Source: Promicromonospora sp. MEB111 (GTDB lineage Bacteria > Actinomycetota > Actinomycetes > Actinomycetales > Cellulomonadaceae). Taken from it: a stretch of DNA of 64,000 bases. The position numbers and the translations under genes are program-made. Below the pieces are notes generated by a model. That model saw only the letters and a list, made by a program, of their open reading frames with translations, was not told the DNA's origin and did not search any database. Shown in pieces: positions 32,417 through 47,262 of the stretch (position 1 is the stretch's first letter; the number at the start of each line of letters is the position of its first letter). The stretch spans positions 124,001-188,000 of the forward strand of contig NZ_JARVSD010000007.1 in the NCBI RefSeq assembly GCF_030209445.1. The letters are read 5' to 3'.

Positions 32417-32522
32417 GCCACGCGCGAGTTCACCCGCCGAACCCGCGGGACGCCCCCGCGAGCCGTATCACGTCGCCTCCCCCGCGACTCCCTCCGGGTA
32501 GGCGGACAAGGAGGTGCGCCTG

Positions 32523-33083
32523 ATGCGACACCAGACAAGTATTCGCTCGGCGCGACGGCGGCACGCGCCGCTGGCCCTGCTCGTGGCGCTGGTGCTCTCG
32601 GCAGGAGCGGCCTGCTCCTGGGGCGGCGACGACACCACGGGCGACGACACCACGCAGACCGACAGCACCGATGACGGCGGCGGCGGAGGCGGCAATGACA
32701 ACGGCGGCGGAGGCGGCGGAGGCGGCGGCGGAGCACAACCCTCGCCGATCCGCCTCGGCAGCCCCCTGGACCGGGCCGGTGGCGACCAGACCGTGTCCGA
32801 GATCGCCGACCTGGCAGCGGATGCGATAGCGGGCCAGTGCCCCGGTGGGGACCTGTGTGTCGAGATCACCTTCGAGCCCGCCGTGCGCGACTGCATCTAC
32901 TCCGGATCCGACCCGGCGGAGGGTGACCTGATCGAGGTCGGTGCAACGCTGACGTTGTTCGGGGACCCCGAGAACCCTGAGGGCTGTGCGGACGGCGGCG
33001 AGAACGGCGAGGAAGTCGATCCGACAGAGGAGACCACCGACGACGGCACGGACGAGAGCCCCTCCGAGGGCAGCCAGGGGTAA
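32523..33083 (+). CDS. Gly/Asp-rich lipoprotein
   Basis: A 186-aa secreted lipoprotein. The signal ends with lipobox AGAAC (Cys near residue 29), followed by an Asp/Thr-rich stretch (DDTTGDDTTQTDSTDD), a Gly-rich spacer of about 20 residues, a small folded part (~80-150; paired Cys in GQCPGGDLC and later CIYSG/EGCADG, perhaps two disulfides) and an acidic tail. No known family. The ATG at 32523 has AAGGAGG 8 bp upstream. The next gene starts 7 bp after its stop, so the two probably act together at the envelope. Confidence 0.75.
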   Translation: MRHQTSIRSARRRHAPLALLVALVLSAGAACSWGGDDTTGDDTTQTDSTDDGGGGGGNDNGGGGGGGGGGAQPSPIRLGSPLDRAGGDQTVSEIADLAADAIAGQCPGGDLCVEITFEPAVRDCIYSGSDPAEGDLIEVGATLTLFGDPENPEGCADGGENGEEVDPTEETTDDGTDESPSEGSQG

Positions 33084-33089
33084 CCCGGG

Positions 33090-34043
33090 ATGAGCGGTCG
33101 GGAGAGGACCGTGCCCGACGAGGACACGCCGGCCGACATCGGCCGGATCGTGCGCGTCGCCACGGAGGTCATCGCGCCCGTCACCCTGGTCACCGCGCTG
33201 CTGTACTTCTTCGGGCGCAAGCAGATCACGTTCTTCTTCGAGTACTTCGGCGTGGACGTCTCGACGCTGGGGCTGACCACCACCGACTACCTCTACCTCG
33301 CGCAGGACGGGCTCCTGATCCCGCTCGCCGTGGTGGCCGCGGGGGTGCTCGTGGCCCTGTGGGTCAGGGGCGGGTCCCGCGCCGGGGGCTCCCGGCCCGA
33401 CGTCGACCGCTGGATCGTGCGCGTGGCGGGCCCGGTCGGGGCGGTCCTGGCCCTGTTCGGGCTCATCCAGGCGTTCTGGCCGGGCGCGGGCCTGGCCGAC
33501 TGGGTGCCGTCGTGGGTAGCCCCCCTCTGCCTGGCCGGCGGGGTGCTGCTGCTCGGCCTGGCCGTGCGCCGTCGGCGCACGATGCGACGTCGCGACGACG
33601 AGCCCTGGGTCCCGCCGTCGCAGGCGGCACGGCTCGCCGAGTGGGGTGCGATGTTCGCGCTCGTGGCGGTGGCGCTGTTCTGGGCGGTGGCGGACTACTC
33701 CGCGGCGGTGGGCCACGAACGGGCCGCACGGTTCGCGGACGGCCTGCCGGAGGACTCGTCCGTCGTGGTGCGCAGCACCGTGGACCTGCAGATCGTCGGG
33801 CCGGGTGTCACGGCGACGGCGTGCCCGTCGGGCGCGGACGGGTTCCGCTACCGGTACGACGGCCTGGTCCTCATGGCCGCCTCGGGCGGCCGGTACGTGC
33901 TGATCCCGCGCGCCTGGTCGCCGGACACCGCCGGCGTGGTGTCGGTGCCGGTGTCCGACGACGTCCGGCTCGACCACCTGAGCCCGTCGCCCGACGGCCA
34001 GGCACGTCAGGGCCCGACGACCGAGCCCGGCTCACCCTGCTGA
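33090..34043 (+). CDS. multi-pass membrane protein, unknown
   Basis: A 317-aa integral membrane protein I cannot assign. Five likely helices: ~22-40 (IAPVTLVTALLYFF), ~70-90 (LLIPLAVVAAGVLVALWV), ~108-125, ~133-155 (VAPLCLAGGVLLLGLAV) and ~185-203 (MFALVAVALFWAVADY). The last ~110 residues form an extracytoplasmic domain with strand-rich VVVRSTVDLQIV and GRYVLIPRAW and two Cys. Co-transcribed with the lipoprotein upstream (7-bp gap). Confidence 0.75.
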   Translation: MSGRERTVPDEDTPADIGRIVRVATEVIAPVTLVTALLYFFGRKQITFFFEYFGVDVSTLGLTTTDYLYLAQDGLLIPLAVVAAGVLVALWVRGGSRAGGSRPDVDRWIVRVAGPVGAVLALFGLIQAFWPGAGLADWVPSWVAPLCLAGGVLLLGLAVRRRRTMRRRDDEPWVPPSQAARLAEWGAMFALVAVALFWAVADYSAAVGHERAARFADGLPEDSSVVVRSTVDLQIVGPGVTATACPSGADGFRYRYDGLVLMAASGGRYVLIPRAWSPDTAGVVSVPVSDDVRLDHLSPSPDGQARQGPTTEPGSPC

Positions 34044-34085
34044 CCGCGCTTCGTGAGCGGCCGGCGATCGGGTAGCCTCCCTGCC

Positions 34086-34580
34086 GTGCGCGTGCTCTCG
34101 CTCCTCCGCTCGGCCCTCACCGGCCCTCGGCAGGGCCTGGTCGGAGCGCTGGCGATCCTCACCGTGATCGTCGGCGTGGTCACGATGCACTCGATGAGCG
34201 GTTCGCCGGCCTCCCACGGGCACGCGGTGCCCCACGAGGCCGCCGCGGTCGTGTCGGAGCAGGTCATGTCGGAACAGGTCGCGTCGGCGCTCACCGGCAC
34301 GACGCAGGCCGTCACCGGACCCGTCCTGGTCCAGGCCCCCGCGACGGACGACCACGCGGCCGGTGACGAGGGCTCCTGCTGCGACGGGTGCGGCGGGCAC
34401 GACGCCGCGATGGCGATGTGCCTCATGATCCTCGTCGCGCTCCTCGCCCTGGTCGCCCCCGCGCGACGGCTGCTGTGGCGGGCCCCGCTCCGGCTCGCGG
34501 CGTCCCTGGCCCCGGCGTTCGCCGGCCTCCGCGACCTCGCGGCCCCCTCCTTGCACGAGCTCTGCATCTCCCGGACGTAG
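34086..34580 (+). CDS. DUF6153-like small membrane protein
   Basis: A 164-aa protein with an N-terminal helix (~12-32, GLVGALAILTVIVGVVTMHSM), a His/Glu-rich extracytoplasmic loop, the Cys motif SCCDGCGGHD, and a second helix (MCLMILVALLALVAP). This matches small His/Cys-rich DUF6153-type proteins that stand next to copper genes, so metal binding is likely. The GTG at 34086 follows a TAGCCT -10 (34073-34078) by 7 bp, so the mRNA is probably leaderless. It heads the DUF305/CopCD region and is followed by a hairpin. Confidence 0.6.
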   Translation: MRVLSLLRSALTGPRQGLVGALAILTVIVGVVTMHSMSGSPASHGHAVPHEAAAVVSEQVMSEQVASALTGTTQAVTGPVLVQAPATDDHAAGDEGSCCDGCGGHDAAMAMCLMILVALLALVAPARRLLWRAPLRLAASLAPAFAGLRDLAAPSLHELCISRT

Positions 34581-34585
34581 ACCCG

Positions 34586-34610
34586 GGTCCGGCGCGTACC
34601 CGCGCCGACC
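34586..34610 (+). terminator. hairpin after DUF6153-like gene
   Basis: GGT-C-CGGCGCG, loop TACC, CGCGCCG-ACC: ten paired bases with one bulge, 6 bp after the stop codon. No T-run. Confidence 0.5.
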
Positions 34611-34682
34611 GACGAGCGTGACCGTGCCCCAGCGCGGTCGCGCCAGTGAGTGCTACCCCGAGACGAACCAGAGGAAGACACC

Positions 34683-35246
34683 ATGAAGCGCACCCTTCTG
34701 TCCGCGATCGCCCTGTCCGCCGCACTCGCCCTCACGGGCTGTGCGGGTTCCGAGGAACCCGGCCAGCAGACCGCGGCGGAGCACGCCGGGCACAACGACG
34801 CGGACGTCATGTTCGCGCAGATGATGATCCCGCACCACGAGCAGGCGATCGAGATGGCGGACGCCGTCCTGGCCCGGCCCGACGCCGACCCGCGGGTCGC
34901 CGAGCTGGCCACCCAGGTCAAGGCCGCCCAGGCCCCCGAGATCGAGACGCTCACCGGCTGGCTCGACACCTGGGGCGCCGAGCCCGCCGGCGAGCACGGG
35001 GGCCACGCGGGGATGGACGGCATGATGTCCGACGAGGACCTCCAGGCGCTCGCCGGCGCCACCGGCCCCGCCGCGGACCGCCTGTTCCTGGAGCAGATGG
35101 TCGTGCACCACGAGGGCGCCGTCGAGATGGCGCAGGCCCAGGTCGAGTCGGGCCAGGAGGCGGGCGCGGTCGAGATGGCGCAGACCATCGTGGAGACGCA
35201 GGCGGCCGAGATCGAGACGATGGAAGAGCTCCTCGCCTCGATGTGA
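34683..35246 (+). CDS. DUF305 lipoprotein
   Basis: A 187-aa lipoprotein (lipobox LTGC, Cys20) with two copies of the DUF305 four-helix motif: FAQMMIPHHEQAIEMAD and LFLEQMVVHHEGAVEMAQ, each a Met/His-rich helix likely to bind copper or another soft metal. HAGHND and EHGGHAGMDGMM add further His/Met ligands. It lies outside the membrane. A CopC-CopD fusion follows, separated by a strong hairpin, so a role in copper handling is likely but not shown. Confidence 0.85.
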   Translation: MKRTLLSAIALSAALALTGCAGSEEPGQQTAAEHAGHNDADVMFAQMMIPHHEQAIEMADAVLARPDADPRVAELATQVKAAQAPEIETLTGWLDTWGAEPAGEHGGHAGMDGMMSDEDLQALAGATGPAADRLFLEQMVVHHEGAVEMAQAQVESGQEAGAVEMAQTIVETQAAEIETMEELLASM

Positions 35247-35251
35247 CCGAC

Positions 35252-35285
35252 GGGTGGTGCGCCGGCGCGGTCCGGCGCACCACCC
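35252..35285 (+). terminator. 14-bp perfect hairpin after DUF305 gene
   Basis: GGGTGGTGCGCCGG, loop CGCGGT, CCGGCGCACCACCC, starting 6 bp after the DUF305 stop and ending 20 bp before the CopC-CopD ATG. A terminator or processing hairpin that could set different levels of the two products. Confidence 0.7.
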
Positions 35286-35305
35286 CCTCCCGAAGGAGCC
35301 TGCCC

Positions 35306-36769
35306 ATGCGCAGTTCTCTCGCCGGAGCGCGCCCTCGCGCGGTCCGCACCGGGGCGGCGTCCGCCCTGCTCGCCCTGCTCGCCTCGCTCGTCCTGACGCT
35401 CTGCTGCGCGCCGCCCGCCGCCGCACACACCCGGCTCGAGTCGTCGGTACCCGCCGCCGGGACGACGGCGTCCGCCCCGGTCACCGCGGTCACGCTGCGG
35501 TTCACCCTGCCCGTGAGCCTGCTCGGCGACGGCGTGGTGATCGACGGCCCGGACGGCGTCGTCACGGCCGACGTCGCCGCCGCCGAGGACGGCCTGGTGC
35601 TGGTCGCGACCCCGGCGGCGGCCCTGGCCGCCGGCCCGTACACGGTGACCTGGACCGCCGCGGCCCAGGACGGCCACCCGCTGGAGGGGACCTTCGGCTT
35701 CACGGTGGCGGGCGGGGCGCCTGACGACGCAGCCGACGAGCCCTCGGCCGGCGCGTCCACCGGGACCGGCCACGACATGAGCGGGATGAGTGGCTCGGAC
35801 CACGGCACGGGGCACGACATGGGCCACGACCCGGCCGCGATGGGCAGCCCCGCGACCGACGCCGCGGGGATCGTCACCCGGCTGGGCGGCGCCGCCGCGC
35901 TGTGGGGCGGCCTGGTCGCCGCGGGGGCCCTGGTGTTCGCCGGCCTCGTGCTGCGCGGGCGGGACGAGGCGGACGTGCCGGCCGTGCTGCGGCTGGTCCG
36001 CCGGTCGGGAGTGCTGCTGCTCGGCGGGCTCCTCGTCCGCGTCCTGGCGAACGCGGTGCTCGTGGCACACGGCGACCTCGCGGCCGCGATCTCAGCGGCC
36101 GCCATCGGTGACTCGCTCACGGGCACGACGCGCTGGGACGTGGGCCTCCAGGCCGCCGGCGCGGTCGCCCTCGTGCTGGGCGCCCGGCGCACGCTGCCCG
36201 CGTCGTGGCCCGCGGCGCTCGGCGCCGCGCTGGCCGGCGCCGGACAGGTCCTCGGCGGCCACAGCAACACCGTCGAGCCCCGGTGGCTCGTGGTCACGGC
36301 GGACGTGGCGCACCTGGCGGCCGCCGCCACCTGGGTGGGCGGCGTCGTCACGCTGACGCTCCTGCTCCGGGCCCGGCGCCGGGACGGGCGCGACCTGGAC
36401 GCCGCGCTGCTGGGCGCCCGCTTCTCGGTGGTCGCGGGCCTCTCCCTCGCGGTGGTCGGCGTGGCCGGGGTGCTGCTCGCGGTGGGGATCCTCGACCGCC
36501 CTGCACAGCTCTGGGAGAGCACCTGGGGCCTGTTCCTGCTGGCGAAGGTCGGGGTGGTCGTGCTGGTCGCGGCGATCGGCACGCACAACCACCTCCGCGT
36601 CGTCCCGCGGCTCACGGCGCGCCGCCGGGCGGTGGTGCGGCACGCGGGACGGTCGCGCAGCGCGGGCGACGCGCTGCGGCGCAGCGCGCGCCGGGAGACG
36701 GCGCTCATGGTCGCGGTCGTGCTGCTCACGGCCTGGCTGGTCGCGGCGTCCGTCCAGGGATCCGGGTGA
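35306..36769 (+). CDS. CopC-CopD fusion copper protein
   Basis: A 487-aa fusion. A signal peptide ends at AAA with the mature chain starting HTRLESS, so the N-terminal His that ligates Cu(II) in CopC is present; the CopC beta-domain runs to about 145 (AAQDGHPLEGTFGFTV has the second His). A His/Met-rich linker follows (GHDMSGMSGSDHGTGHDMGHD), then a CopD domain of about eight helices (~190-485). It takes up or moves copper across the membrane. Ribosome site GAAGGAG upstream of the ATG. Confidence 0.85.
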   Translation: MRSSLAGARPRAVRTGAASALLALLASLVLTLCCAPPAAAHTRLESSVPAAGTTASAPVTAVTLRFTLPVSLLGDGVVIDGPDGVVTADVAAAEDGLVLVATPAAALAAGPYTVTWTAAAQDGHPLEGTFGFTVAGGAPDDAADEPSAGASTGTGHDMSGMSGSDHGTGHDMGHDPAAMGSPATDAAGIVTRLGGAAALWGGLVAAGALVFAGLVLRGRDEADVPAVLRLVRRSGVLLLGGLLVRVLANAVLVAHGDLAAAISAAAIGDSLTGTTRWDVGLQAAGAVALVLGARRTLPASWPAALGAALAGAGQVLGGHSNTVEPRWLVVTADVAHLAAAATWVGGVVTLTLLLRARRRDGRDLDAALLGARFSVVAGLSLAVVGVAGVLLAVGILDRPAQLWESTWGLFLLAKVGVVVLVAAIGTHNHLRVVPRLTARRRAVVRHAGRSRSAGDALRRSARRETALMVAVVLLTAWLVAASVQGSG

Positions 36770-36862: not shown

Positions 36863-38245
36863 ATGTCCACGAACATCCCCTGGACCGTCCGGCAGGGTCC
36901 GCGCGGGCCCGTCCCCGTGTACGTGCTCCAGTTCGACGCGCGGGGCGCCCTGACCTCGCCGCGGTCCCTGGCGGCCCTGGTCGAGGACGCGCGGGACGCC
37001 ACCGACCTCGTCGTCGTCTCGCACGGCTGGAACAACGACTGGCTGGCGGCCACCTCGCGCTACGACGAGTTCTTCGACCACCTCGACGCGGTGCTGCGGT
37101 CGCACCCGCCCGCCCCGGACCGCCCGTTCCGCCCCGTGTACGTGGGCGTCTTCTGGCCCAGCGCCGCGCTGGTCATGCCCTGGGAGCGGGGCCCCGACAT
37201 CGCGGGCGGCGGCGACGGCCTGGTCGGCGAGCTGGCCGACGAGCTCGCGGTGCTGAGCGGGGACCTCGGACCGGAGCTGAGCGCCGAGCTGCACGCGCTG
37301 CTGGCCGACCCGGCGCTGGCCGACCCCGGGACGGGCGGGGACCGGGCCGACCTGGCCGCCGAGATCCTCGCGCACCTGCCCGTCGCCGACCAGGACGAGA
37401 CCGGCGCGACGGGCACCCGGGTGGACGGGCCCGCGCTGCGGGCCGTCTGGGAGGACACGCTCGCGCGGATCGAGCCGACACCCGTCCGCCCCGGCGGCAT
37501 CATCCCCGACGACGTCCCCGAGGTCGGCGGCCCCGGGGAGGGCGGCGCGGCCGCCCCGCAGGTCGCGGGCTTCAACCCGCTGGAGCTGATCCGCTCCGGG
37601 ATCCGCCTGGCCACGGTGCGCCAGATGAAGGACCGGGCCGGTCGCGTGGGCGGCACCGGCGTGGCCGCCGCCCTGCGCCGGCTGGCCGACGAGACGCCCG
37701 CGCGGATCCACCTGGTGGGCCACTCGTACGGCGGGCGGGTCGTGCTCTCCGCCGTGTGCAACGGCCCCTGGCCCGGCCGGCCCGTCGACTCGGTGCTGCT
37801 GCTGCAGCCGGCGCTGTCCGCCTGGGCCTTCGCGGGCGACGTCGACGGCCGGCCCGGCGGGTACCGGCCGGCGTTCGACCGGGTGCGCAACCCGATCATC
37901 ACCACCCGGTCGGCGCACGACCTGCCGCTCACGCGCGTGTTCCACCTGGCGCTGCGGCGCCGGGCCGACCTCGGCGAGGCCGAGATCGCGGGACTGCCGC
38001 CGTCGCGGTTCGCCGCGCTCGGCGGCTACGGCCCGCAGGGCGTGGGCGCCGAGGCGCTCCAGATCGACCGGATGCCCGACGTCGGCCAGCACTACCCGAT
38101 CGGCGAGCACGCCGTCGACAGCCGGTACGAGGTGATCGGCGTGGACGGTACCTGGTGCATCCCGGGCCACGGCGCCGTCCAGTCCGACCAGACCGCCTGG
38201 GCGCTGCTGAGCCAGATGCGGGCCGCGGCGCACACGGACGGGTGA
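36863..38245 (+). CDS. alpha/beta hydrolase heading CHAT-protease operon
   Basis: A 460-aa protein with an alpha/beta-hydrolase core: LVVVSHGWNND for the oxyanion region and HLVGHSYGGRVVLSAV with nucleophile S288; a His near the C-terminus (CIPGHGAVQ) may complete the triad. Between ~110 and ~265 is a long acidic insertion without known motif. No signal peptide, so it acts inside the cell. It is closest in type to DUF900/lipase-like esterases. The next gene begins 11 bp after its stop. In this context a lipase or esterase effector controlled by the downstream proteases is plausible but unproven. Confidence 0.7.
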   Translation: MSTNIPWTVRQGPRGPVPVYVLQFDARGALTSPRSLAALVEDARDATDLVVVSHGWNNDWLAATSRYDEFFDHLDAVLRSHPPAPDRPFRPVYVGVFWPSAALVMPWERGPDIAGGGDGLVGELADELAVLSGDLGPELSAELHALLADPALADPGTGGDRADLAAEILAHLPVADQDETGATGTRVDGPALRAVWEDTLARIEPTPVRPGGIIPDDVPEVGGPGEGGAAAPQVAGFNPLELIRSGIRLATVRQMKDRAGRVGGTGVAAALRRLADETPARIHLVGHSYGGRVVLSAVCNGPWPGRPVDSVLLLQPALSAWAFAGDVDGRPGGYRPAFDRVRNPIITTRSAHDLPLTRVFHLALRRRADLGEAEIAGLPPSRFAALGGYGPQGVGAEALQIDRMPDVGQHYPIGEHAVDSRYEVIGVDGTWCIPGHGAVQSDQTAWALLSQMRAAAHTDG

Positions 38246-38256
38246 GGGAGGCGTCG

Positions 38257-39678
38257 ATGGCGAAGACCCTGCGCTCGGAGATCGACCTGCCGACCCTGCG
38301 CATCAGCGTCGACCTGGCCACCTCGGAGGCCGTGTTCGCGGCGGTCCGCGGACGGCGCCGGCCCACCGAGGTCGCGCGCTGCCCCCTCGCGGACCTCGGC
38401 CTGCCGCCGAGCGCCGTCGAGCACGTGCGGGACGCCGACCTGACCGTCCCCGTGACGGTCGTGACCCGGCTCTCGGCGGCCGCCGAGAACCTCGGTACGT
38501 CGCCGCTGCCCCCGCACAACGCCCTGTGGCTGGAGTTCCCCGTCCCGCGCGGCCTGGTGCACGTGCTGCCCTGGGAGCGGCTGCTCGCAGGGCTGGGCCG
38601 GCCCCTGTTCCGGCTGCCGTTCCACCCCGTGCGCCCGCAGAAGCCCGGGGTGCAGCTCGACGTCGCGATCTGCTCCAGCTCCCCCTTCCCGACGGTCCGG
38701 TTCGACCCGGCGCGCGTGGTCGCCGAGCTCGCCCACCAGTACCTCGACATCCCGGGCCGGCACGTCACGGTGCACCTGTTCACCGACGCCGACCGGTACG
38801 CAGCGACGTGCGACGCCGTCCACCCGCTGCTGGGCCGCGGCGACGTCGTCGTGCACGTGCCGGCGGAGCGGGACGCCGCGGCGCGGCGCACGATCGCCCG
38901 CCCCGGGGGCCCGCACGCGATCGCCAACCCGTGGCTGACCTGGATCCTGGACGCCGTCGAGGGCGGGCGGCTCGACATCGTGCACTTCGTGGCGCACGGG
39001 CACCTGTCCGACGGCCGCGGGGCGCTGGTGCTGGCCGGCTCGCCTGCGTCGAACGACGGGCCCGCGACGTTCGTCGAGGCCGTCGAGGTGATCGAGCTCC
39101 TCACGCGGGTCGGGGCCGTGGGCCTGGCGCTCTCCGACCCGCCCGGCAGCGACAGCGCGGCGGGGCTGCGCGACCTCGCCGACTACGTGGCCCAGTCCAG
39201 GCCGGGGGTCACGGCCGTGCACGACGTCGCGGCGGACCCGGGCGGCGAGCAGCTCGCCAGGAGCCTGCGCACGGCGCTGACGCCGTCCGGCCCACTCACG
39301 GCGCCGTTCCCGGCGATGACCGCCTGGGTGCACCCGCTCTTCGTCGAGGTCGTCCGCGACCCGGAGCCGGCCGGCGAGCCGCTGACCACGGACCTGCGCG
39401 AGCTCACCGACGGGCTCATGCTCCGCAAGGACGGGCGGTCCGCGTTCCTGCACGAGGCCACGCGCAAGGCCGCCGTCGAGGTCGACGGCGACTCGTGGGT
39501 CGCCTCGGCGTCGCGCAGCATCGAGCACCTGCAGATGAGCTGGCTCCCCTACACGGCCGACCTCCCGGTCGACCAAGCCGCCGTGGACGCGCTGAACCGC
39601 GTCTCGGCCCTGCTGGAGCGGCACGTCCACCTGGCGTACCCCGAGGAGCCCGAGCCCCCGGAGGGTAGTTCCCGATGA
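38257..39678 (+). CDS. CHAT-like protein, predicted inactive
   Basis: A 473-aa protein. The N-terminal ~130 residues have no recognised motif. From ~140 a CHAT (caspase-like) fold is suggested: LDVAICSSSPFP for the first strand, VELAHQYLDIPG-type helix, and IVHFVAHGHLSDGRGALVLA with the catalytic His (H247). At the place where CHAT proteases have L-S-A-C the sequence is GLALSDPPGSD, so the Cys is missing, yet the following helix (LRDLADYVAQ) and VTAVHD are kept. It resembles a pseudo-protease. The C-terminal ~100 residues are helical. ATGA overlap with the next CHAT gene. Confidence 0.6.
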   Translation: MAKTLRSEIDLPTLRISVDLATSEAVFAAVRGRRRPTEVARCPLADLGLPPSAVEHVRDADLTVPVTVVTRLSAAAENLGTSPLPPHNALWLEFPVPRGLVHVLPWERLLAGLGRPLFRLPFHPVRPQKPGVQLDVAICSSSPFPTVRFDPARVVAELAHQYLDIPGRHVTVHLFTDADRYAATCDAVHPLLGRGDVVVHVPAERDAAARRTIARPGGPHAIANPWLTWILDAVEGGRLDIVHFVAHGHLSDGRGALVLAGSPASNDGPATFVEAVEVIELLTRVGAVGLALSDPPGSDSAAGLRDLADYVAQSRPGVTAVHDVAADPGGEQLARSLRTALTPSGPLTAPFPAMTAWVHPLFVEVVRDPEPAGEPLTTDLRELTDGLMLRKDGRSAFLHEATRKAAVEVDGDSWVASASRSIEHLQMSWLPYTADLPVDQAAVDALNRVSALLERHVHLAYPEEPEPPEGSSR

Positions 39679-41078
39679 GCCGCGTCGTCTTCCAGCTCTC
39701 CGCCTTCGGCGAGGAGGGCGCGACCACGCCGCTGGTGCGGCTGGTCGAGCCCGTCGACGACCAGGCCCTCGACCGGACCTTCGACTGCCCCACGGGCAGC
39801 CCGGCCCGCGCCCAGGCCCTCGACGCCGACGTCAACGCCCGCGAGGGCGACCGGCTGTTCCAGGCGCTCGCCGCGCACGAGCAGCTCGGCGACCAGCTCG
39901 CCGTGGCGCTGCACAGCGCCGACCACAGGTTCCCCGTCTACGCGGAGATCCTGCCGCGCAGCGGGGCGGACGGCCTGCCGTGGGAGGCCCTCCGGTTCCC
40001 CGGCGACGGGCCCTACCTGGCGCTGGAGGACAAGTACGCGCTGGCCCGCGTGGTGCGCACGACGGCGCCGCCGGTGCCCCTGTACCAGCTCGAACCGCCG
40101 CTGCGGATCATGGCCCTGCTGTCGTGCCTGGGCCTGGGCGCCGCGGCCGAGCTGCGCGAGCTGCGGGCCGCCGCCCTGGAGGCCGGGCCGGGCATGGCCC
40201 GCCTCCTGGTCGTCGTCAGCGAGGAGGAGCTGGCCAGCGGCCTGCAGGCCGAGGTCGACGCCGGCACCGCCCCCGAGATCGCGGGCGTGCACCTGGTGCC
40301 GCCCGACCACCACGACCTGGTCCGGCTGGTCAACGAGTTCAAGCCCCACGTGCTGCACCTGTTCTGCCACGGCTCCGCCGAGCCCGTGCCGCACGTGCGG
40401 CTCGCCCTCAAGCAGGACTGGTCGGCGGCGGACCCCGGCATCGGCCTGGCCCTGGAGAAGGAGCAGTTCGCGAAGTTCGTCTGGGACACGGACGGCGGGC
40501 CCTGGCTCGTCGTCCTTAACTGCTGCGAGGGCGCCGCCTCGTCGGGGGACGGGGCGACGTCCCTCGCTCGCGACCTCGTCACCAAGGGCGTCGCGCCCGC
40601 CGCCGTCGGCATGCGCGAGCCGATCCGGAGCGCAGTGGCCAGCACGCTGACGCAGGGCCTGTACGGCGCCCTGCTGGGCGAGCTGACCACCCGGACCAAG
40701 GCGGGCGCGACGCTGTCGGCGCCCCTGGACTGGGCGGCCCTGACCGTGGCGGCCCGCAACCGGCTGGTCACGGAGCTCGGCGCGGGGCTGTCGCCGACGC
40801 AGGCGCGGAACCAGAGCCGCGAGTGGACCCTGCCGGCGCTCTACCTGCGCTGGGAGGAGTTCCAGCTCCAGCTCACGCCCGCGCGGAACGGCGGACCGCC
40901 GCGGGTCGACCCGGAGCAGGCCCGGACCTGGCGCCTGGAGGTCGCCGCGCTGCAGAGCCTGCTCGCCGCGCTGCCGCCCGGCCAGGGCGCCGCGTTCCGC
41001 GCCGGCGCCGTGGAACGGATCGCCGAGCTCGCCGGGCTGCTCGGCGTCACGCCGGAGGCCCTGGAGGAGTCGTCGTGA
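39675..41078 (+). CDS. CHAT-domain cysteine protease
   Basis: A 467-aa CHAT protein. The domain runs from about 95 to 345: LPWEALRFPG (typical CHAT entry), RIMALLSCLG, PHVLHLFCHGS with catalytic H232, WLVVLNCCEGAAS with C283/C284 as the nucleophile position, then LVTKGVAPAAVGMREPI and FxxxLYGALLGE-like helix. Unlike most CHAT proteases it has no TPR array; the C-terminal ~120 residues are helical and unassigned. It overlaps the preceding pseudo-CHAT and the following C25-like genes by 4 bp each, so the three are made together. Confidence 0.75.
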   Translation: MSRVVFQLSAFGEEGATTPLVRLVEPVDDQALDRTFDCPTGSPARAQALDADVNAREGDRLFQALAAHEQLGDQLAVALHSADHRFPVYAEILPRSGADGLPWEALRFPGDGPYLALEDKYALARVVRTTAPPVPLYQLEPPLRIMALLSCLGLGAAAELRELRAAALEAGPGMARLLVVVSEEELASGLQAEVDAGTAPEIAGVHLVPPDHHDLVRLVNEFKPHVLHLFCHGSAEPVPHVRLALKQDWSAADPGIGLALEKEQFAKFVWDTDGGPWLVVLNCCEGAASSGDGATSLARDLVTKGVAPAAVGMREPIRSAVASTLTQGLYGALLGELTTRTKAGATLSAPLDWAALTVAARNRLVTELGAGLSPTQARNQSREWTLPALYLRWEEFQLQLTPARNGGPPRVDPEQARTWRLEVAALQSLLAALPPGQGAAFRAGAVERIAELAGLLGVTPEALEESS

Positions 41079-42553
41079 CCGTCACGCCCGGTGCCGCCCC
41101 CGCCGTCGACCCCGGCTACGAGATCACCAGCGACGCGTGGTCGGGCACGGCCCCGGTCGCGGGGCGGTTCGCCGCGGACGTGCGGCCCTGGCTCACCCAG
41201 GAGTTCACGGTCGCCGAGCGCACGGCGCGGCCCGCCCCGGCCGACCCGTGGGACTGGCGGCACCCGGACGTCGGCTGGGGGCTCGTGGCTCGCGAGCCCG
41301 AGGGCGCCACCCGGGACGAGCTCCTGGCCATGGCCGACCTGCCCGCGGACATCCGGCGCCTGGTCGCGGCGCGCGACGGCCGGGTCTTCCGCTACCGCCC
41401 CGCGGGCGGCTACGCGCAGTGGACCCTCGTCGACCACGCGGGCGACGCCCAGCCGTTCGTCCCGGCCGCCCCGGCGGGGGCCGACGCCGGGGAGCTGCCG
41501 GCCTTCCTGCTCATCTACGGCAGCCCCGAGCAGGTCCCGTGGCGGGTGCAGTACATCCTCAACCCGGTGCGCCACGTGGGCCGGCTCGACCTGACGGGCA
41601 GCGCCCTGACGCGCTACGTCGACGCCCTGCTCGGCGAGTGGCGCGACTCGGCGGCCCAGTGGTCCAGGCCCGTCGTCTGGGCGGTGGACCACCGGATGGG
41701 CGAGATCACCACCCTCATGCGCGACGTCGTCGCGGAGCCGCTCAGCGGCGACCTGAGCGCGGACGCCGAGCTGACGCCCACGTTCGTGGACGGGCGGACC
41801 ACGCCCGCCACGGTCGCCGCGCTGACCGCGGCGCTGACGAGCAGCCGGCCCGCCGTCGTCGTCACCACCAGCCACGGCCAGACCGGGCCGCTCGCCGACC
41901 CCGCGCGCCTGCGCGCGGACCTCGGCAAGCCGGTCGACCACGACCACGCGCCGCTCGACCCCGAGGCCCTGCTGGCCTCCTGGCAGCCCGACGGCGCGAT
42001 CTGGTTCGCCCAGGCCTGCTGCTCCGCCGGGGCGGACAGCCCGTCGGCCTACGCCGGGCTGTTCGACGGCGACCTGGGCCGGACGTTCGACGGCGTCGCC
42101 GCGCTGGGCGCCCTCACCTCGCCGCTCCCCCGGGCCCTGCTCGGCGCCCGGAAACCGCTGCGCGCCTTCATCGGGCACGTCGAGCCCACCTTCAACTGGA
42201 CGCTCAGCTTTCCGCCGAACGCGCAGCCGCTGACCGCGCAGCTGCGCGAGGCGCTCTACGCGCGGCTGTTCCTGGGCCGGCCGGTGGGGTACGCGATGGA
42301 GCCGTACTACCGGCCCATCGGAGCCCTGCTCCAGGGCTACCAGCTCGCCGAGAAGGAGTTCCAGACCGCCTTCGGGGCCAGGGCGAGACCCAGCCTCGAC
42401 ATGATGGTGTACAGCCGCGTGACGGCCCACGACCGCGCCAGCACGGTCATCCTGGGCGATCCCACGGTCGCGATCCCCCTGCCGTCGGCCGGCCGGGCAG
42501 AGCACGGTCCGGCAGAGCACGCTCAGGCCAGGAACTCCAGCCAGAGGGGGTAG
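41075..42553 (+). CDS. C25-like caspase-fold cysteine peptidase
   Basis: A 492-aa protein. AFLLIYGSPEQVPWRVQYIL and VGRLDLTGSALTRYVDALLGEW match the start of gingipain-type (C25) domains; VVVTTSHGQTG holds the likely catalytic His (H267) and WFAQACCSAGADS the Cys (C315/C316). Spacing of 48 residues is right for clan CD peptidases. The N-terminal ~130 residues and C-terminal region are unassigned; no signal peptide, unlike secreted gingipains. GTG start overlapping the CHAT stop. The 3' end overlaps the reverse-strand EEP gene by 31 bp. Confidence 0.65.
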   Translation: MTVTPGAAPAVDPGYEITSDAWSGTAPVAGRFAADVRPWLTQEFTVAERTARPAPADPWDWRHPDVGWGLVAREPEGATRDELLAMADLPADIRRLVAARDGRVFRYRPAGGYAQWTLVDHAGDAQPFVPAAPAGADAGELPAFLLIYGSPEQVPWRVQYILNPVRHVGRLDLTGSALTRYVDALLGEWRDSAAQWSRPVVWAVDHRMGEITTLMRDVVAEPLSGDLSADAELTPTFVDGRTTPATVAALTAALTSSRPAVVVTTSHGQTGPLADPARLRADLGKPVDHDHAPLDPEALLASWQPDGAIWFAQACCSAGADSPSAYAGLFDGDLGRTFDGVAALGALTSPLPRALLGARKPLRAFIGHVEPTFNWTLSFPPNAQPLTAQLREALYARLFLGRPVGYAMEPYYRPIGALLQGYQLAEKEFQTAFGARARPSLDMMVYSRVTAHDRASTVILGDPTVAIPLPSAGRAEHGPAEHAQARNSSQRG

Positions 42554-43488
42554 TGGTCGCTCAGGCGCCACGAGACCTGGTTCCGGGTGAGGTCCCGCAG
42601 CGCGTGCGGGAGAAAGTCGAAGCTGCCGCCGTGCCCCGTGTAGGTGAGGCCCTCCAGGAGCGACGGGGCACCGGGCCGCGCGGGGTCGCTGAACCAGGCG
42701 ATCTGGTCGTACTGGTGGTTGGTCCGGTCGTCGTCGAAGATCGTGCGCGGCACCGTGTTCAGCTCCGCGGGCGGCCAGAGCCCGGTCGAGGCGAACGCCG
42801 CGAAGAGCGGGTCGTCCAGCCGGTCGAGGTTGAAGTCGCCCAGGACGAGCAGGTTGTGGTTCCAGTCGTCGGGCCGGTCGGCCCAGCCCCGCATCCACGT
42901 GGCGAACGCAGTCAGCTCGCCGATCCGGTCGGCGGGCGCCTTGCCCCACAGCACGTGCACCGTCGTCAGGATGAACTCGGTCGCGCCGCGCACGAAGCCC
43001 GCGGCGTACGGGGTGCGGGCGAACTGGTCGACGTCGTTCCGCGCGTCCTTCGGCAGGACGAGCTCCCCGACCAGGCCGGAGGCCTGGACCCGCTCGGAGT
43101 CGTAGACGTAGGCGAGGCGCTCGCCGTTGCCGGGACCGCCCTCGGTGACGTCGGAGGCGATGACCTGGTAGCGCGGGCCCAGCAGGCTCAGGAGCGCGAA
43201 CAGGGCCGTGGTGTCGCGCCGGGTCTCCTGGACCGCCGTCACGTCGAACCGTTCGACCACCTCGGCGATGCAGGCCAGCGCGTGCCAGTCGCGCTTGGGG
43301 CGGTCGTCCTGGGCGGACTGCCACTTGTGCGTGAGGTCGCCGAAGGCACGCAGGTTCCATGTGCCGACCAGCAGGTTCTTGGTCGTCTTGGCCGGGATCT
43401 GGGCCGCGAGCGCGGCGCGCACCCGGTCGACGTCGCCGGTGACCCCGCCGGGCACCGGCCCGGGCGGCGGGGCGATGGTCGTGGTCAT
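42523..43488 (-). CDS. endonuclease/exonuclease/phosphatase-family protein
   Basis: A 321-aa EEP-fold metal enzyme with all hallmark motifs: TWNLRAF (Asn), AVQETR (Glu), LLVLGDFNLDRLDD (Asp-Phe-Asn), YDQIAWF and SDHYPLWLEF (catalytic Asp-His). The family includes DNase I-like nucleases, inositol phosphatases and sphingomyelinases; the substrate cannot be read from sequence. It lacks a signal peptide. It converges on the caspase-like operon with a 31-bp antisense overlap, and the ATG has AGGTGATGTGCC upstream. Confidence 0.85.
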   Translation of the reverse strand: MTTTIAPPPGPVPGGVTGDVDRVRAALAAQIPAKTTKNLLVGTWNLRAFGDLTHKWQSAQDDRPKRDWHALACIAEVVERFDVTAVQETRRDTTALFALLSLLGPRYQVIASDVTEGGPGNGERLAYVYDSERVQASGLVGELVLPKDARNDVDQFARTPYAAGFVRGATEFILTTVHVLWGKAPADRIGELTAFATWMRGWADRPDDWNHNLLVLGDFNLDRLDDPLFAAFASTGLWPPAELNTVPRTIFDDDRTNHQYDQIAWFSDPARPGAPSLLEGLTYTGHGGSFDFLPHALRDLTRNQVSWRLSDHYPLWLEFLA

Positions 43489-43681
43489 GGCACATCACCT
43501 GCAGACGGAGAGATCGGGAGGTACCGATACCTGACAGGAGGGCGGCCGGCCGAGGGCTGATACCGCCGGACCCGGATGAAACAGGTGATATCACAGCTAA
43601 ATTTCGATGCTTCCGCATCCAGGGCGAGACTGCTGCCAGCCGGTAGAGACCGGGCAACGTGTGCGCAGGGGGCAGGTTCAC

Positions 43682-43903
43682 GTGACGTCCATCAGTGCTG
43701 TGCGGGTCGACCGGCAGGAGTGCCGGTCCACCCGCGCCGCGATCCCTGGTTACCTCGACCGACGCCTCGAACCGCGCAGCCTGCGCCGCTTCGAGACCCA
43801 CATCGATCAGTGCCCCGGGTGCATCCGCGCGTTCATCGACGTGCGCCAGGTGGCCTGGGCACGGCGTAACGCGGACGCCCGGCGGCTCGGCCGGGTCAGC
43901 TGA
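43682..43903 (+). CDS. small zf-HC2 zinc-finger protein
   Basis: A 73-aa protein with the zf-HC2 pattern: C at 15 (QECRS), then HIDQCPGC (H-x3-C-x2-C) at about 41-48, inside helices PGYLDRRLEPRSLRRFETH. This is the zinc-binding anti-sigma domain, here without a transmembrane part and without an adjacent sigma gene. GTG start at 43682 behind GGGGGCAGG. It may bind a sigma factor encoded elsewhere. Its last 8 bp overlap the convergent WYL regulator gene. Confidence 0.7.
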   Translation: MTSISAVRVDRQECRSTRAAIPGYLDRRLEPRSLRRFETHIDQCPGCIRAFIDVRQVAWARRNADARRLGRVS

Positions 43904-44924
43904 CGGGGTCCGCCGACGGGAGGTCAGCGGCGCGTCCCGCGCGCCCGGCGAGGTCGGCGAACGCGTCCCGCAGGGCCGGCGGGCCGACCACCTCGATCTC
44001 CGCGCCGAACCGCGCCAGCGCGGCGGCCAGCGCCGCCCAGGACCACGACCCGGTGCGCAGCCTGGTCCGGTCCGGGCCGAGCTCCTCGACGAGCCCGTCC
44101 CCGGCGAACGGCGCCACGCGCGCGACCGGCAGCGCGAGCACCACGTCGCCGATGCAGGGCCACGCGCCGGCGCCCGTGGATCCCTCGAGGTCCGTCGAGC
44201 CCCTGAAGCGGGCGGCCAGGAACGCGCCGACGTCGCCGCCCGGTACCTGGCGCGGGGTGAACCGCGGGCCGTTCGGCACCCGGGGCGTCATCCGGTCCAC
44301 CCGGTAGGTGCGCCACTCCCCCGGCTCCGGGGCCCAGCCGACCAGGTACCAGCGCCGCGCGCGGACCACGAGGTGGTGCGGCTGCACCCGCCGCGGGGGC
44401 GTCCCCGCGTCGGGCCGGCCCGGGGACGCGTAGTCGAACCGCACCTCCTCGTGCGCCCGGAGGGCGGCGCCCAGGGCGAGCAGGACGTCGGTGTCGACCT
44501 GGTCGCCGTCCCCCGGACCGGCGGGCTCGGCCGCGGTCAGCTCCAGGGCGTCCACCCGCTGCCGCAGACGGGCGGGCAGCACCTGGCGCACCGTCGTCAG
44601 CGCCCGCGCGGCGGCCTCCTCGATGCCCGCGCCCGTCACCACCGCGAGCCGCAGCGCCACGGCGAGCGCCACCGCCTGCTCGTCGTCGAACAGCAGGGGC
44701 GGCAGCTCGCTGCCCGCCTCCAGGCGGTAGCCGCCGTCGGGCCCCCGGGCCGTCCGCACCGGGTAGCCGAGCTCCCGCAGGCGGTCGACGTCGCGTCGCA
44801 CGGTGCGGTCGCTGACGCCGAGCCGGCGCGCGAGCTGCCCGGCCGGCCAGTCGCGGCGCACCTGGAGCAGCGACAACAGGGACAGGAGGCGGGCGGAGGT
44901 CATGGTCGAGGCGGCGGTGGGCAT
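43896..44924 (-). CDS. WYL-domain transcription regulator
   Basis: A 342-aa regulator of the YafY/PafC type: N-terminal HTH_11 winged helix (~8-65, LLSLLQVRRDWPAGQLARRLGVSDRTVRRDVDRLRELGYPV), then a WYL domain (~145-230, VRFDYASPGRPDAGTPPRRVQPHHLVVRARRWYLVGW) and a WCX extension. WYL domains bind nucleic acids or nucleotides. The ATG at 44924 is preferred over an upstream ATG at 45050 that lies inside the divergent gene. A 9-7-9 inverted repeat 20 bp upstream is its likely operator, and the divergent VOC gene its likely target. Confidence 0.9.
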   Translation of the reverse strand: MPTAASTMTSARLLSLLSLLQVRRDWPAGQLARRLGVSDRTVRRDVDRLRELGYPVRTARGPDGGYRLEAGSELPPLLFDDEQAVALAVALRLAVVTGAGIEEAAARALTTVRQVLPARLRQRVDALELTAAEPAGPGDGDQVDTDVLLALGAALRAHEEVRFDYASPGRPDAGTPPRRVQPHHLVVRARRWYLVGWAPEPGEWRTYRVDRMTPRVPNGPRFTPRQVPGGDVGAFLAARFRGSTDLEGSTGAGAWPCIGDVVLALPVARVAPFAGDGLVEELGPDRTRLRTGSWSWAALAAALARFGAEIEVVGPPALRDAFADLAGRAGRAADLPSADPVS

Positions 44925-44943
44925 GTCCGCCACGATGACACGA

Positions 44944-44968
44944 GTACCGGACGATCCCTGTCCGGTAC
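44944..44968. promoter_or_regulatory. operator between WYL regulator and VOC gene
   Basis: GTACCGGAC-GATCCCT-GTCCGGTAC, a perfect 9-bp inverted repeat with 7-bp spacer (centre to centre 16 bp). It lies 19 bp upstream of the WYL ATG (44924) and 68 bp upstream of the VOC ATG (45037). Confidence 0.75.
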
Positions 44969-45036
44969 GGCTGGCAGGTTGGGGTTCGTCGCCGGGGACC
45001 TCCGGCCACGAACCCGTCGCGTGAGGACACAGCACC

Positions 45037-45501
45037 ATGTCGATCAGCACCGTTGCCCACCTGAACTTCCACGGCCAGGCCCGCGCGGCCCTGGAGCTCT
45101 ACCACTCCGTGTTCGGCGGGCAGATCCTCGTCACCACCTACGGCGACCTCGGGATGCCCGCCGGGCTGCCCGACGCCGGCAAGGTCGTGTTCGGCCAGGT
45201 CGTGTCCGACAACGGCTTCCGGGTCATGGCCTACGACGTCCCCGGCGACGCACCGGCCTCGGCGGCGGCGCCCACCACCCGCCGGGAGAACGGCACGACC
45301 ATCACGTCGGAACCCTTCTTCCTCTCCGTGCGCGGCGAGAGCGTCGAGGAGGTGGCCGCCCTGTGGGCGGGGCTCGCGGTCGGCGCGACGATCGTCGAGC
45401 CCTACGCCCCGGCGCAGTGGGCGCCCGCCTTCGGCATGCTCACCGACCGCTTCGGCGTCACCTGGGTGCTCGACGTCGCGGCCGAGCACGCCCCGGCCTG
45501 A
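45037..45501 (+). CDS. VOC protein, PhnB/DUF1428-like
   Basis: A 154-aa glyoxalase-fold protein of the PhnB-like branch: VAHLNFHGQARAALELYHSVFGG, GKVVFGQVVSDNGFRVMAYDV, FFLSVRGESVEEV and DRFGVTWVLDV. Such proteins are common partners of WYL regulators in actinobacteria, but their function is not known. Divergent from the WYL gene across a clear operator. A small hairpin follows. Confidence 0.85.
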   Translation: MSISTVAHLNFHGQARAALELYHSVFGGQILVTTYGDLGMPAGLPDAGKVVFGQVVSDNGFRVMAYDVPGDAPASAAAPTTRRENGTTITSEPFFLSVRGESVEEVAALWAGLAVGATIVEPYAPAQWAPAFGMLTDRFGVTWVLDVAAEHAPA

Positions 45502-45521
45502 CGCCGTCGCGCACCCCCGCT

Positions 45522-45537
45522 CCGGGCCGGCGCCCGG
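45522..45537 (+). terminator. short hairpin after VOC gene
   Basis: CCGGGC-CGGC-GCCCGG, 20 bp after the stop. Six base pairs, no T-run. Confidence 0.4.
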
Positions 45538-45581
45538 GCACAACCCGAGGCGCCGGTCCTCGCGACTCCATCGAGGGGGCT

Positions 45582-45614
45582 TCCAGGTGAACATCAGATG
45601 AACGATGAAGGAAC
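45582..45614 (-). promoter_or_regulatory. PHO box (three 11-bp direct repeats)
   Basis: On the reverse strand the sequence is three consecutive 11-mers: GTTCCTTCATC, GTTCATCTGAT and GTTCACCTGGA. This is the actinobacterial PhoP binding pattern (GTTCA-CC-type direct repeats of 11 nt). It ends 62 bp before the GTG start of the PiT gene and lies over an alternative upstream ATG (45605), which argues against that start. Confidence 0.75.
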
Positions 45615-45676
45615 AGTGCCTTGATATCAGCCAAAAACACGGATCACCCCAAGGTTCGCCTCGCAAAATCGAGGCC

Positions 45677-46957
45677 GTGACCGAAACGCTCCTGCTCGCG
45701 CTCGTCGTCGTGACCGCGCTCGCCTTCGACTTCACGAACGGATTCCACGACACGGGCAACGCGATGGCCACCTCCATCGCCACCCGTGCCCTCAAGCCCA
45801 AGACAGCCGTCGCGCTGTCCGCCGTCCTCAACCTCGTCGGCGCGTTTCTCTCGCTCGCCGTCGCCGCGACCATCGCGAAGGGCATCGTCGACGCCGGTGT
45901 CATCACCCTGCCCGTCGTGCTCGCCGGCCTGGTCGGCGGCATCGTCTGGAACCTGCTCACCTGGTTGCTCGGCATCCCGTCCAGCTCCTCGCACGCGCTC
46001 GTCGGCGGCATGGTCGGCGCCGTGCTGGCCGCCGTCGGCACCTCGGGCGTGCTGTGGACCGGAGTGGTGTCCAAGGTGCTGGTGCCGGCCCTGCTCGCCC
46101 CGCTCATCGCGATCGCCGTGGCCGGCCTCGGCACCTGGTGCGTCGCCAAGCTGACCCGCGGAGTGCCGCAGGACCTGACCAACCGGGGCTTCCGCTGGGG
46201 CCAGATCGGCTCCGCCTCGCTCGTCTCCCTGGCGCACGGCACCAACGACGCACAGAAGTCGATGGGCATCATCCTGCTCGCCCTCATCGCGGGCGGCGCC
46301 GTGCCCGCCGACTCGAACGTGCCGCTCTGGGTGATCCTGAGCTGCGCGGTCGCCATGGCGCTCGGCACCTACCTGGGTGGCTGGCGGGTCATCCGCACGC
46401 TCGGCAAGGGGCTCGTCGAGATCGACACCCGGCAGGGCATGGCCGCCGAGACGTCGTCGGCCGCCGTCATCCTGCTCTCCAGCCACTTCGGCTTCTCGCT
46501 GTCCACGACGCACGTCGCCACCGGCTCGGTGCTCGGCTCCGGCGTCGGCATGCCGGGCGCGAAGGTGCGCTGGAGCGTGGCGGGGCGGATGTTCGTCGCC
46601 TGGGGCCTCACCCTTCCGGCGGCCGGCCTGGTCGGCGCGCTGTGCCAGTGGCTGGAGTCCGCCATCGGCGGCACGTTCGGCGTCGTCGCCGTCTTCGCCG
46701 TGCTGGTGATCTCGTCCGCGGCCATCTGGCTCGTGTCGCGCCGCAAGCCGGTGGACCACACCAACGTGAACGAGGAGTGGGACGAGGACAAGGGCGCCGG
46801 CATCGAGCCCGTCGCCGCCACGACGGGCCAGGCGGGCGGCGAGCGCGTCGGCCCCGTGCCCGCCCTCGCGACGGCGTCGTCCGTCGGCCCGGCCATCGAG
46901 TCCGTGGGGACGGTGGGCGCCCCGGGTGCCGACGCCCCGTCGAAGGGAGACAACTGA
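45677..46957 (+). CDS. pit: PiT-family inorganic phosphate transporter
   Basis: A 426-aa low-affinity phosphate:cation symporter. Both PiT signatures are present: DFTNGFHDTGNAMATSIATRA at the N-terminus and SLAHGTNDAQKSMGI centrally; about ten helices, and a hydrophilic Pro/Gly/Val-rich tail of ~70 residues. GTG at 45677 chosen because the PHO box covers the upstream ATG. PhoP control by the three-repeat PHO box is likely. The stop shares one base with the start of a small membrane protein gene. Confidence 0.9.
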   Translation: MTETLLLALVVVTALAFDFTNGFHDTGNAMATSIATRALKPKTAVALSAVLNLVGAFLSLAVAATIAKGIVDAGVITLPVVLAGLVGGIVWNLLTWLLGIPSSSSHALVGGMVGAVLAAVGTSGVLWTGVVSKVLVPALLAPLIAIAVAGLGTWCVAKLTRGVPQDLTNRGFRWGQIGSASLVSLAHGTNDAQKSMGIILLALIAGGAVPADSNVPLWVILSCAVAMALGTYLGGWRVIRTLGKGLVEIDTRQGMAAETSSAAVILLSSHFGFSLSTTHVATGSVLGSGVGMPGAKVRWSVAGRMFVAWGLTLPAAGLVGALCQWLESAIGGTFGVVAVFAVLVISSAAIWLVSRRKPVDHTNVNEEWDEDKGAGIEPVAATTGQAGGERVGPVPALATASSVGPAIESVGTVGAPGADAPSKGDN

Positions 46958-47262
46958 TGAGCGACTTCATCGAGTGGGGCGCGCTGAGCCAGGTCCTCGT
47001 GGCCGGCGTGCTCGTCGGCGCGGGCATCCCCGCGCTGTTCGCGCTGGGGCTCCGCCTGCTGGCGGGCCCGGCCCGGGACCGCGGGGACGCGGTGCCGGGG
47101 GCCGGTGAGGCGGCGGGACGCCGCACCTCGGACGACGGCGCCGTCGCCGTCGCGATCCCGCGCCCCGGCCCCGCGCGCCTGGCCGGAGCGGCCCTGTGCC
47201 TGGGCCTCGTCGTCGCGGCGGTCGCCACGGGCCTGTTCGTCGTGGTCTCCGGCGGGCACTAG
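46957..47262 (+). CDS. small membrane protein coupled to pit
   Basis: A 101-aa protein with two helices (~10-33, SQVLVAGVLVGAGIPALFALGL, and ~75-98, LAGAALCLGLVVAAVATGLFVVV) joined by a charged Gly/Arg-rich loop. It starts within the pit stop codon (TGATG), so it is translationally coupled and may be an accessory subunit of the transporter. No family recognised. Confidence 0.75.
   Translation: MSDFIEWGALSQVLVAGVLVGAGIPALFALGLRLLAGPARDRGDAVPGAGEAAGRRTSDDGAVAVAIPRPGPARLAGAALCLGLVVAAVATGLFVVVSGGH

Follow-up and report, generated by a model that had tools for sequence, protein, structure and literature searches.

What does a run of four genes do in which an alpha/beta hydrolase is followed by three caspase-like proteins? 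Such a run was noticed in a stretch of 64,000 nucleotides from Promicromonospora sp. MEB111 (contig NZ_JARVSD010000007.1, positions 124,001 to 188,000; assembly GCF_030209445.1), which at its full length is called the window here and provides the numbering used throughout. Four open reading frames (ORFs), named A, B, C and D, lie in the same direction on the plus strand from 36863 to 42553 with intergenic gaps of 11, -4 and -4 bp: A (36863-38245, 460 aa, ATG start) is a predicted alpha/beta hydrolase, B (38257-39678, 473 aa, ATG start) a putative CHAT-related pseudoprotease, C (39675-41078, 467 aa, ATG start) a predicted CHAT protease and D (41075-42553, 492 aa, GTG start) a predicted C25-like (gingipain-fold) cysteine peptidase. 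An initial annotation had proposed these ORFs with their shared direction and gaps, and both the ORF list and a simple purpose-written codon-scoring gene caller, which chose the same four frames, bear it out; all residues to which it had pointed (S288 in A, a His and no Cys in B, H232 and C283/C284 in C, H267 and C315/C316 in D) are present as well. The operon looks like a protein-cutting switch for a lipase-like enzyme, perhaps one for killing infected cells. More specifically, we read it as a laterally moving protease-effector operon in which regulatory proteases would free hydrolase A and the cell would be arrested or killed, a reading to which we give about even chances.

Gene A is predicted to encode a serine hydrolase with a complete triad. 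The initial annotation had named S288 and overlooked D353 and H436, which were supplied by alignment; each of the three residues is kept in 19 of 19 aligned rows, as is H54 of an HGW motif. The putative nucleophile elbow fits G-x-S-x-G, and the order of the residues is that of a Ser-Asp-His triad. Since no curated Pfam hydrolase family scored over its cut-off (DUF900 16.9 bits vs 20.5, Abhydrolase_1 14.9 vs 25.8, PGAP1 13.5 vs 24.3), A is called hydrolase-like by motif. A sequence search of solved structures with the A profile was uninformative, its best match being a lysozyme fusion (E 9e-4) that we take as chance. Between a WPS motif and the nucleophile elbow A carries a variable insertion (residues 101-240; 37163-37582, plus strand), which ranges from 116 to 151 residues across the 19 aligned rows and is the least conserved segment of the protein, with a mean column identity of 0.37 vs 0.43-0.73 elsewhere. 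Judged from the alignment, this insertion is a candidate for a cleavable gate.

Regarding the three downstream genes, C and D are predicted to be clan-CD cysteine proteases that have kept their catalytic residues. C scores 49.5 bits against Pfam PF12770 (cut-off 24) and matches the solved SAVED-CHAT structure PDB 8tl0 (E 1.3e-10) and the PADLOC model SAVED_CHAT (E 8e-9); it is one of three CHAT matches in its own genome (6.2 Mb, 35 contigs). The dyad of C consists of H232 (codon 40368-40370) and C284 (codon 40524-40526), both found in 14 of 14 aligned rows, and as C284 is invariant and its neighbor C283 is Cys in only 10 of 14 rows, C284 is the probable nucleophile. The modelled fold of D is caspase-type; structure comparison (VIA-align) ranks chains of gingipain, separase and Craspase highest, and the fold is that of a gingipain catalytic domain. 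Its predicted catalytic residues are H267 (codon 41873-41875) and C315 (codon 42017-42019); the Cys is found in 18 of 18 aligned rows and the His in 17, the exception being the Ruegeria copy (L018), which also has a stop in A. These 18 rows include two distant D-like paralogues (from L012 and L013). Here, too, the invariant member of an adjacent Cys pair (C315, 18 of 18 rows; C316 is Cys in 14 of 18) is taken as the nucleophile. A caspase fold had been anticipated for both 39675-41078 and 41075-42553, and it was found, for C via PF12770 and 8tl0 and for D via structure comparison. The peptidase is C25-like in fold and residues, as the initial annotation had it, and the Pfam family does not recognise it: PF01364 does not match D of the window and reaches only one of the 18 rows (E 0.14). 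As the D profile nevertheless matches proteins of Nostoc and Sinorhizobium (E 3e-66 and 4e-62) that themselves pass PF01364, D is called C25-like and not filed as a C25 member.

B differs from C and D at the active site. His247 sits at the CHAT His position and the nucleophile position holds no Cys, and across the family Cys is found there in 0 of 14 aligned rows and the His in 9 of 14. B itself scores 15.2 bits against PF12770, below the cut-off of 24, and three of its 14 relatives give any CHAT match at E ≤1 (best E 0.00021). What had been annotated as a CHAT-like protein is thus best read, from these alignments, as a dead CHAT, i.e. a CHAT-related pseudoprotease. Sequence searches of solved structures with the B and D profiles returned nothing informative, nor did NCBIfam for A-D, and no signal-like or membrane-like segments were seen in any of the four proteins.

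The initial annotation had made its idea depend on the four genes being conserved together in other genomes, and this they are. Loci with D were collected from a genome scan (14 loci, L008-L021), from genomes of the same family and the same phylum and from five plasmid records, four of which were used, the fifth being a second Bradyrhizobium record. After duplicates had been removed, 22 loci with a full-family D were obtained, the window included, and 18 of them, from three phyla, carry A-B-C-D in that order on one strand (the window, L008, L009, L010, L014-L018, L020-L023, L027 and L029-L032). Among these are a contig of Isoptericola halotolerans (L008), a 182-kb conjugative Bradyrhizobium plasmid, a 311-kb Gemmobacter plasmid and two Embleya records (3.1 and 5.7 Mb) that are labelled plasmids. 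The copies of L018 and L021 look decayed or misread: in L018 a stop interrupts A and D has lost its His, and in L021 D is spread over two frames. Across 10 of the 18 loci the four proteins have correlated pairwise distances (r between 0.955 and 0.975, six protein pairs), and in a Mantel test none of 2000 permutations reached any of the six values, shared species history adding to the correlation. This comparison omits the loci with broken genes (L018, L021), one with B in two pieces (L016) and those outside the alignments used (L027, L029-L032); the residue counts given above for B, C and D likewise omit the last five, and those for D also L021.

Three further loci, in Variovorax (L011), Viridilinea (L012) and a Chloroflexales metagenome-assembled genome (MAG; L013), carry A and D without B and C, so that A-D can be regarded as the minimal pair, and in Viridilinea the two are joined in a single open frame of 941 codons (L012 5774-8596). 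In the D tree the D of the Variovorax A-D copy is sister to that of a full Rubrivivax operon (support 98/99), which suggests that B-C was lost in the Variovorax lineage.

D has a patchy distribution. It was found in 2 of 13 genomes of the same genus (G000 and G288), in 4 of 150 of a family sample and in 2 of 198 of an order sample, and D or a D-like gene in 3 of 396 genomes of a phylum sample, one of these three having nothing but a distant D-like gene; each count includes the own genome. In a congener (G261, locus L094) the segment 36754-42531 (no strand assigned), which holds A, B, C and D minus its last 22 bases, where D overlaps a neighboring gene, is missing as one piece: about 9 bp separate the window flanks 32457-36753 and 42532-47260 there, and 5.78 kb are missing. 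Five congeners were compared at the flanks; both flanks are joined only in G261, and the other four match them partly. The four genes enter or leave genomes together and are inherited as one block. A transposon with ends was considered and rejected, no direct repeat of at least 10 bp being shared within 150 bp either side of the two junctions; the inverted matches of 10-11 bp that occur are not at the junctions. Foreign composition was rejected as well, with a GC content of 0.762 for the operon and 0.740 for the window.

Relatives of the hydrolase are also found with other proteases. In total 24 plasmid records with an A relative were obtained and nine were read. Four carry A-B-C-D; a Nostoc plasmid carries a haem peroxidase gene, A, C25, a CHAT-nSTAND1-WD40 gene and a further CHAT gene, a Planktothrix plasmid A and CHAT-nSTAND1 with C25 about 8 kb on, a Sinorhizobium plasmid A and C25, and a Rhizobium johnstonii plasmid S8 and then A; the ninth is from Rhodococcus. 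The phylum sample holds an A relative in 16 of 396 genomes, own included. Outside the own genome 16 actinobacterial A-family loci were read (L027, L057-L071; the short fragment G359:C99 was left out), in which adjacent proteases were sought with C25, CHAT, B and S8 profiles. A protease is directly adjacent to A in eight of the 16, once as A-B-C-D and seven times as an S8 gene upstream of A; one further locus (L070) is cut by a contig end upstream of A. The S8 subtilase stands directly upstream of the A-family hydrolase in L057-L062 and L065 and on the rhizobial plasmid (L036 5511-8525), and S8-A is apparently a recurrent two-gene unit in actinobacteria and on a rhizobial plasmid. Protease partners are thus common in the A family and belong to two unrelated clans, but they are not universal.

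The initial annotation had suggested that the peptidases activate or control the hydrolase, which could attack lipids. Proteolytic control of A gains support from the A-D fusion, from the A relatives that stand beside unrelated proteases and from the gain or loss of the operon in one piece, and the suggestion is to that extent upheld. We picture the sequence of events as follows. The large variable insertion would hold hydrolase A inactive, with B, as scaffold or trigger sensor, and C, as initiator, forming the regulatory half. A trigger, probably infection, would release C, and C would then activate D, or C and D would jointly cut the insertion of A. Freed A would attack a cellular ester, most likely a membrane lipid, and thereby arrest or kill the cell before phages are released. 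The scheme amounts to an initiator caspase, an executioner caspase and a lytic effector; the lipid substrate, the activation by cleavage and the role in conflict are what we infer. More tentatively, one family of A hydrolases with a cleavable insertion may pair with varied proteases (CHAT, C25-like, STAND-CHAT, S8) and form a class of protease-gated alpha/beta hydrolases, in which the operon of the window would be the most elaborate member, a two-step cascade of a CHAT initiator and a gingipain-like executioner held by a dead CHAT, and the enzymatic, lipid-cutting counterpart of gasdermin-protease pairs. This wider proposal we regard as possible, with the doubts prevailing.

A number of observations weigh against a protease-gated conflict operon. 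No C25, CHAT or S8 gene is adjacent in seven of the 16 actinobacterial A-family loci (five come from one genus, another is L063, where an S8 gene lies 6 kb off, and the last is L071; in two of the seven, L069 and L071, Gly replaces the catalytic Ser) and no protease was seen beside the A copy of the Rhodococcus plasmid, so a protease partner is not obligatory. Such orphan A-family proteins also keep the insertion-bearing fold, which weakens the idea of a gate. In a Myxococcales MAG (L019) B-C-D has no adjacent A. None of A, B and D is matched by a PADLOC model. Relatives of D were found neither in 50,697 phage records nor in two viral-contig scans, and carriage by phages is rejected on these grounds. 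The initial annotation, finally, had proposed to look for the four families together and in defence islands; they do occur together elsewhere, but the operon of the window lies outside any evident defence island, and its flanks look ordinary, with a WYL regulator and an EEP gene by Pfam and genes of copper-resistance and phosphate-transporter type by sequence reading.

These ordinary chromosomal neighbors, also found in L022, are in keeping with a non-immune intracellular pathway, in which the operon would process or turn over an ester-linked cell component (a lipid, a polyester or an acylated protein) and the proteases would regulate or mature A in metabolism or stress. The same can be said of the A-family genes without protease in five genomes of one genus, and of L010 and L033, where a haem peroxidase gene lies close to A. 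We nevertheless consider such a pathway unlikely, as the patchy distribution of D, the conjugative plasmid, the gain or loss in one piece and the STAND/CHAT neighbors in cyanobacteria and Chloroflexales fit a role in conflict better.

It is also conceivable that the damage is done by C and D, as effectors that cut essential host or phage proteins, with A as a parallel effector or an uncut regulator. Direct action of CHAT and caspase-like proteases is known from other systems, and L019 retains B-C-D without adjacent A, upstream of an Endonuclease_NS gene. On the other hand, A-D occurs without B and C in three loci and is fused in one of them, and A relatives are paired with unrelated S8 proteases, which suggests that the protease serves A and not the reverse; we hold direct effectors to be distinctly improbable. 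That the proteases are an antidote, restraining A by degradation instead of activating it, is very improbable: the linkage of protease and hydrolase by itself does not tell whether the control is positive or negative, but two proteases with a pseudoprotease, and varied protease families, resemble the activating pairs in the available passages of PMC12799240 and PMC12881547 more than antidotes, an argument by likeness only.

Regarding the genes around the operon, the EEP (Exo_endo_phos) gene of the window (42523-43488, minus strand) and D are arranged tail to tail and share 31 bp at their ends. It was considered as a fifth member and rejected: G261 retains it where the operon is missing, and full-length relatives are encoded in G261, G270 and G300 in the absence of the operon. 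Of 15 genomes tested, the own one among them, six have an EEP relative, in one case a fragment; some of the six carry the operon and others do not, and the gene is therefore regarded as a bystander. A conserved fifth gene was likewise rejected, the downstream neighbors varying by lineage among those scanned, with the remaining loci not scanned in full: the window has EEP, L011 a convergent PLD gene, L019 a 285-aa gene and Endonuclease_NS, L010 haem peroxidase, and L023 and, by sequence reading, L008 VanY/PG-binding. Proteins with DUF2278 and Lamin-tail (LTD) domains are encoded downstream of D in Embleya (L017 12663-13733, L032 11247-12458). Close to the hydrolase-protease genes there is an animal-type haem peroxidase gene in a Mycobacterium locus (L010 11281-13137) and in the Nostoc plasmid (L033 4634-6409). 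In the Variovorax locus, where B and C are absent, a gene with a protein-kinase domain (L011 7380-8459) has one base in common with the start of A and might be the input there. On the Bradyrhizobium plasmid the region upstream of A holds an HmaC/DUF499 gene (E 6e-283 to the PADLOC model) at a distance of 3.5 kb and a gene annotated as DUF1156 at 6.8 kb; the HmaC-type gene and the STAND/CHAT neighbors in cyanobacteria and Chloroflexales are all the context seen for an anti-phage role.

Both Chloroflexales loci (L012 and L013) have a second, distant D-like gene immediately upstream, near CHAT, NB-ARC and WD40-type proteins, and in Viridilinea NB-ARC/TPR/CHAT-like proteins, named from sequence reading, are close by. 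Another caspase-fold protease beside a lipase is seen in L026 (G583 C191 1713-2744), where a distant D-like gene, left out of every count of D loci, and a gene for a lecithin:cholesterol-acyltransferase-like lipase, identified by sequence reading, are arranged tail to tail. By the same means, the A-family genes of L064 and L066-L069 (one genus) are seen to lie beside DUF1343/NamZ-looking, short-chain-dehydrogenase or penicillin-acylase-like genes, and in L070 (1126-3159) an FtsH-like AAA gene with a HEAGH metalloprotease motif is tail to tail with the truncated A-family gene.

How does the operon compare with known systems? Effectors that are switched by proteolysis are already known, namely bacterial pro-nucleases and gasdermins. 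According to the available passages of PMC12799240, pro-nucleases are opened by a partner protease at insertions that block the active site, the caspase-nuclease Canu, in which CanB partners the caspase, is among them, and further proteolytically activated enzyme classes are suggested to exist. As in Canu (KaeCanABC) and the Hachiman/AVAST pro-nuclease-protease pairs of those passages, a caspase-family protease is linked here to an insertion-bearing enzyme, co-evolves with it and moves between genomes, and B may partner the protease as CanB does. However, the effector there is an MBL-fold nuclease and here a predicted alpha/beta hydrolase, and CanA is MALT1-like with an Ig fold, whereas the proteins here are CHAT, C25-like and pseudo-CHAT. 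In the passages available from PMC12881547 fungal gasdermins are under the control of CHAT or S8 proteases; as in the bacterial and fungal gasdermin clusters described there, a protease gene adjoins that of a putative membrane-attacking effector, and CHAT and S8 types recur in both, but the predicted hydrolase would cause enzymatic damage and not a pore. CHAT in other conflict systems is covered by PMC10907252, whose available passages contain no word beginning with "hydrolase". By Pfam, neither an MBL domain nor a gasdermin was found in A-D at E 0.1 or better. In the open-licence literature no report of this four-family combination was found among the matches listed, which is weak evidence of absence.

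A type III-B SAVED-CHAT proteolytic cascade, reportedly the work of Steens et al. 2024, is said to place a CHAT protease ahead of a second caspase-like protease. This cascade is mentioned in the available part of PMC11417357. The order of proteases would be the same here, and 8tl0 is the best solved relative of C; in contrast to that cascade, C lacks a SAVED domain and A-D any CRISPR-related domain by Pfam (the search did not extend to CRISPR arrays). The TPR-CHAT protease of Craspase (Csx29) is RNA-guided by Cas7-11, with which the chain titles agree, and, unlike the operon, it has no hydrolase. Gingipains (C25) are secreted proteases; D resembles them in its modelled fold and in its conserved His and Cys in the usual order, and differs in having no signal-like N terminus and no direct Pfam C25 match. 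If our reading is true, a class of hydrolase effectors would be added to the proteolytically switched ones, in a four-gene unit compact enough for study in a laboratory host. Bacteria would then possess a two-protease cascade with a pseudoprotease that compares with initiator, executioner and dead caspases, and, by serving one effector family with both S8 and CHAT proteases, they would resemble fungi in the control of gasdermins.

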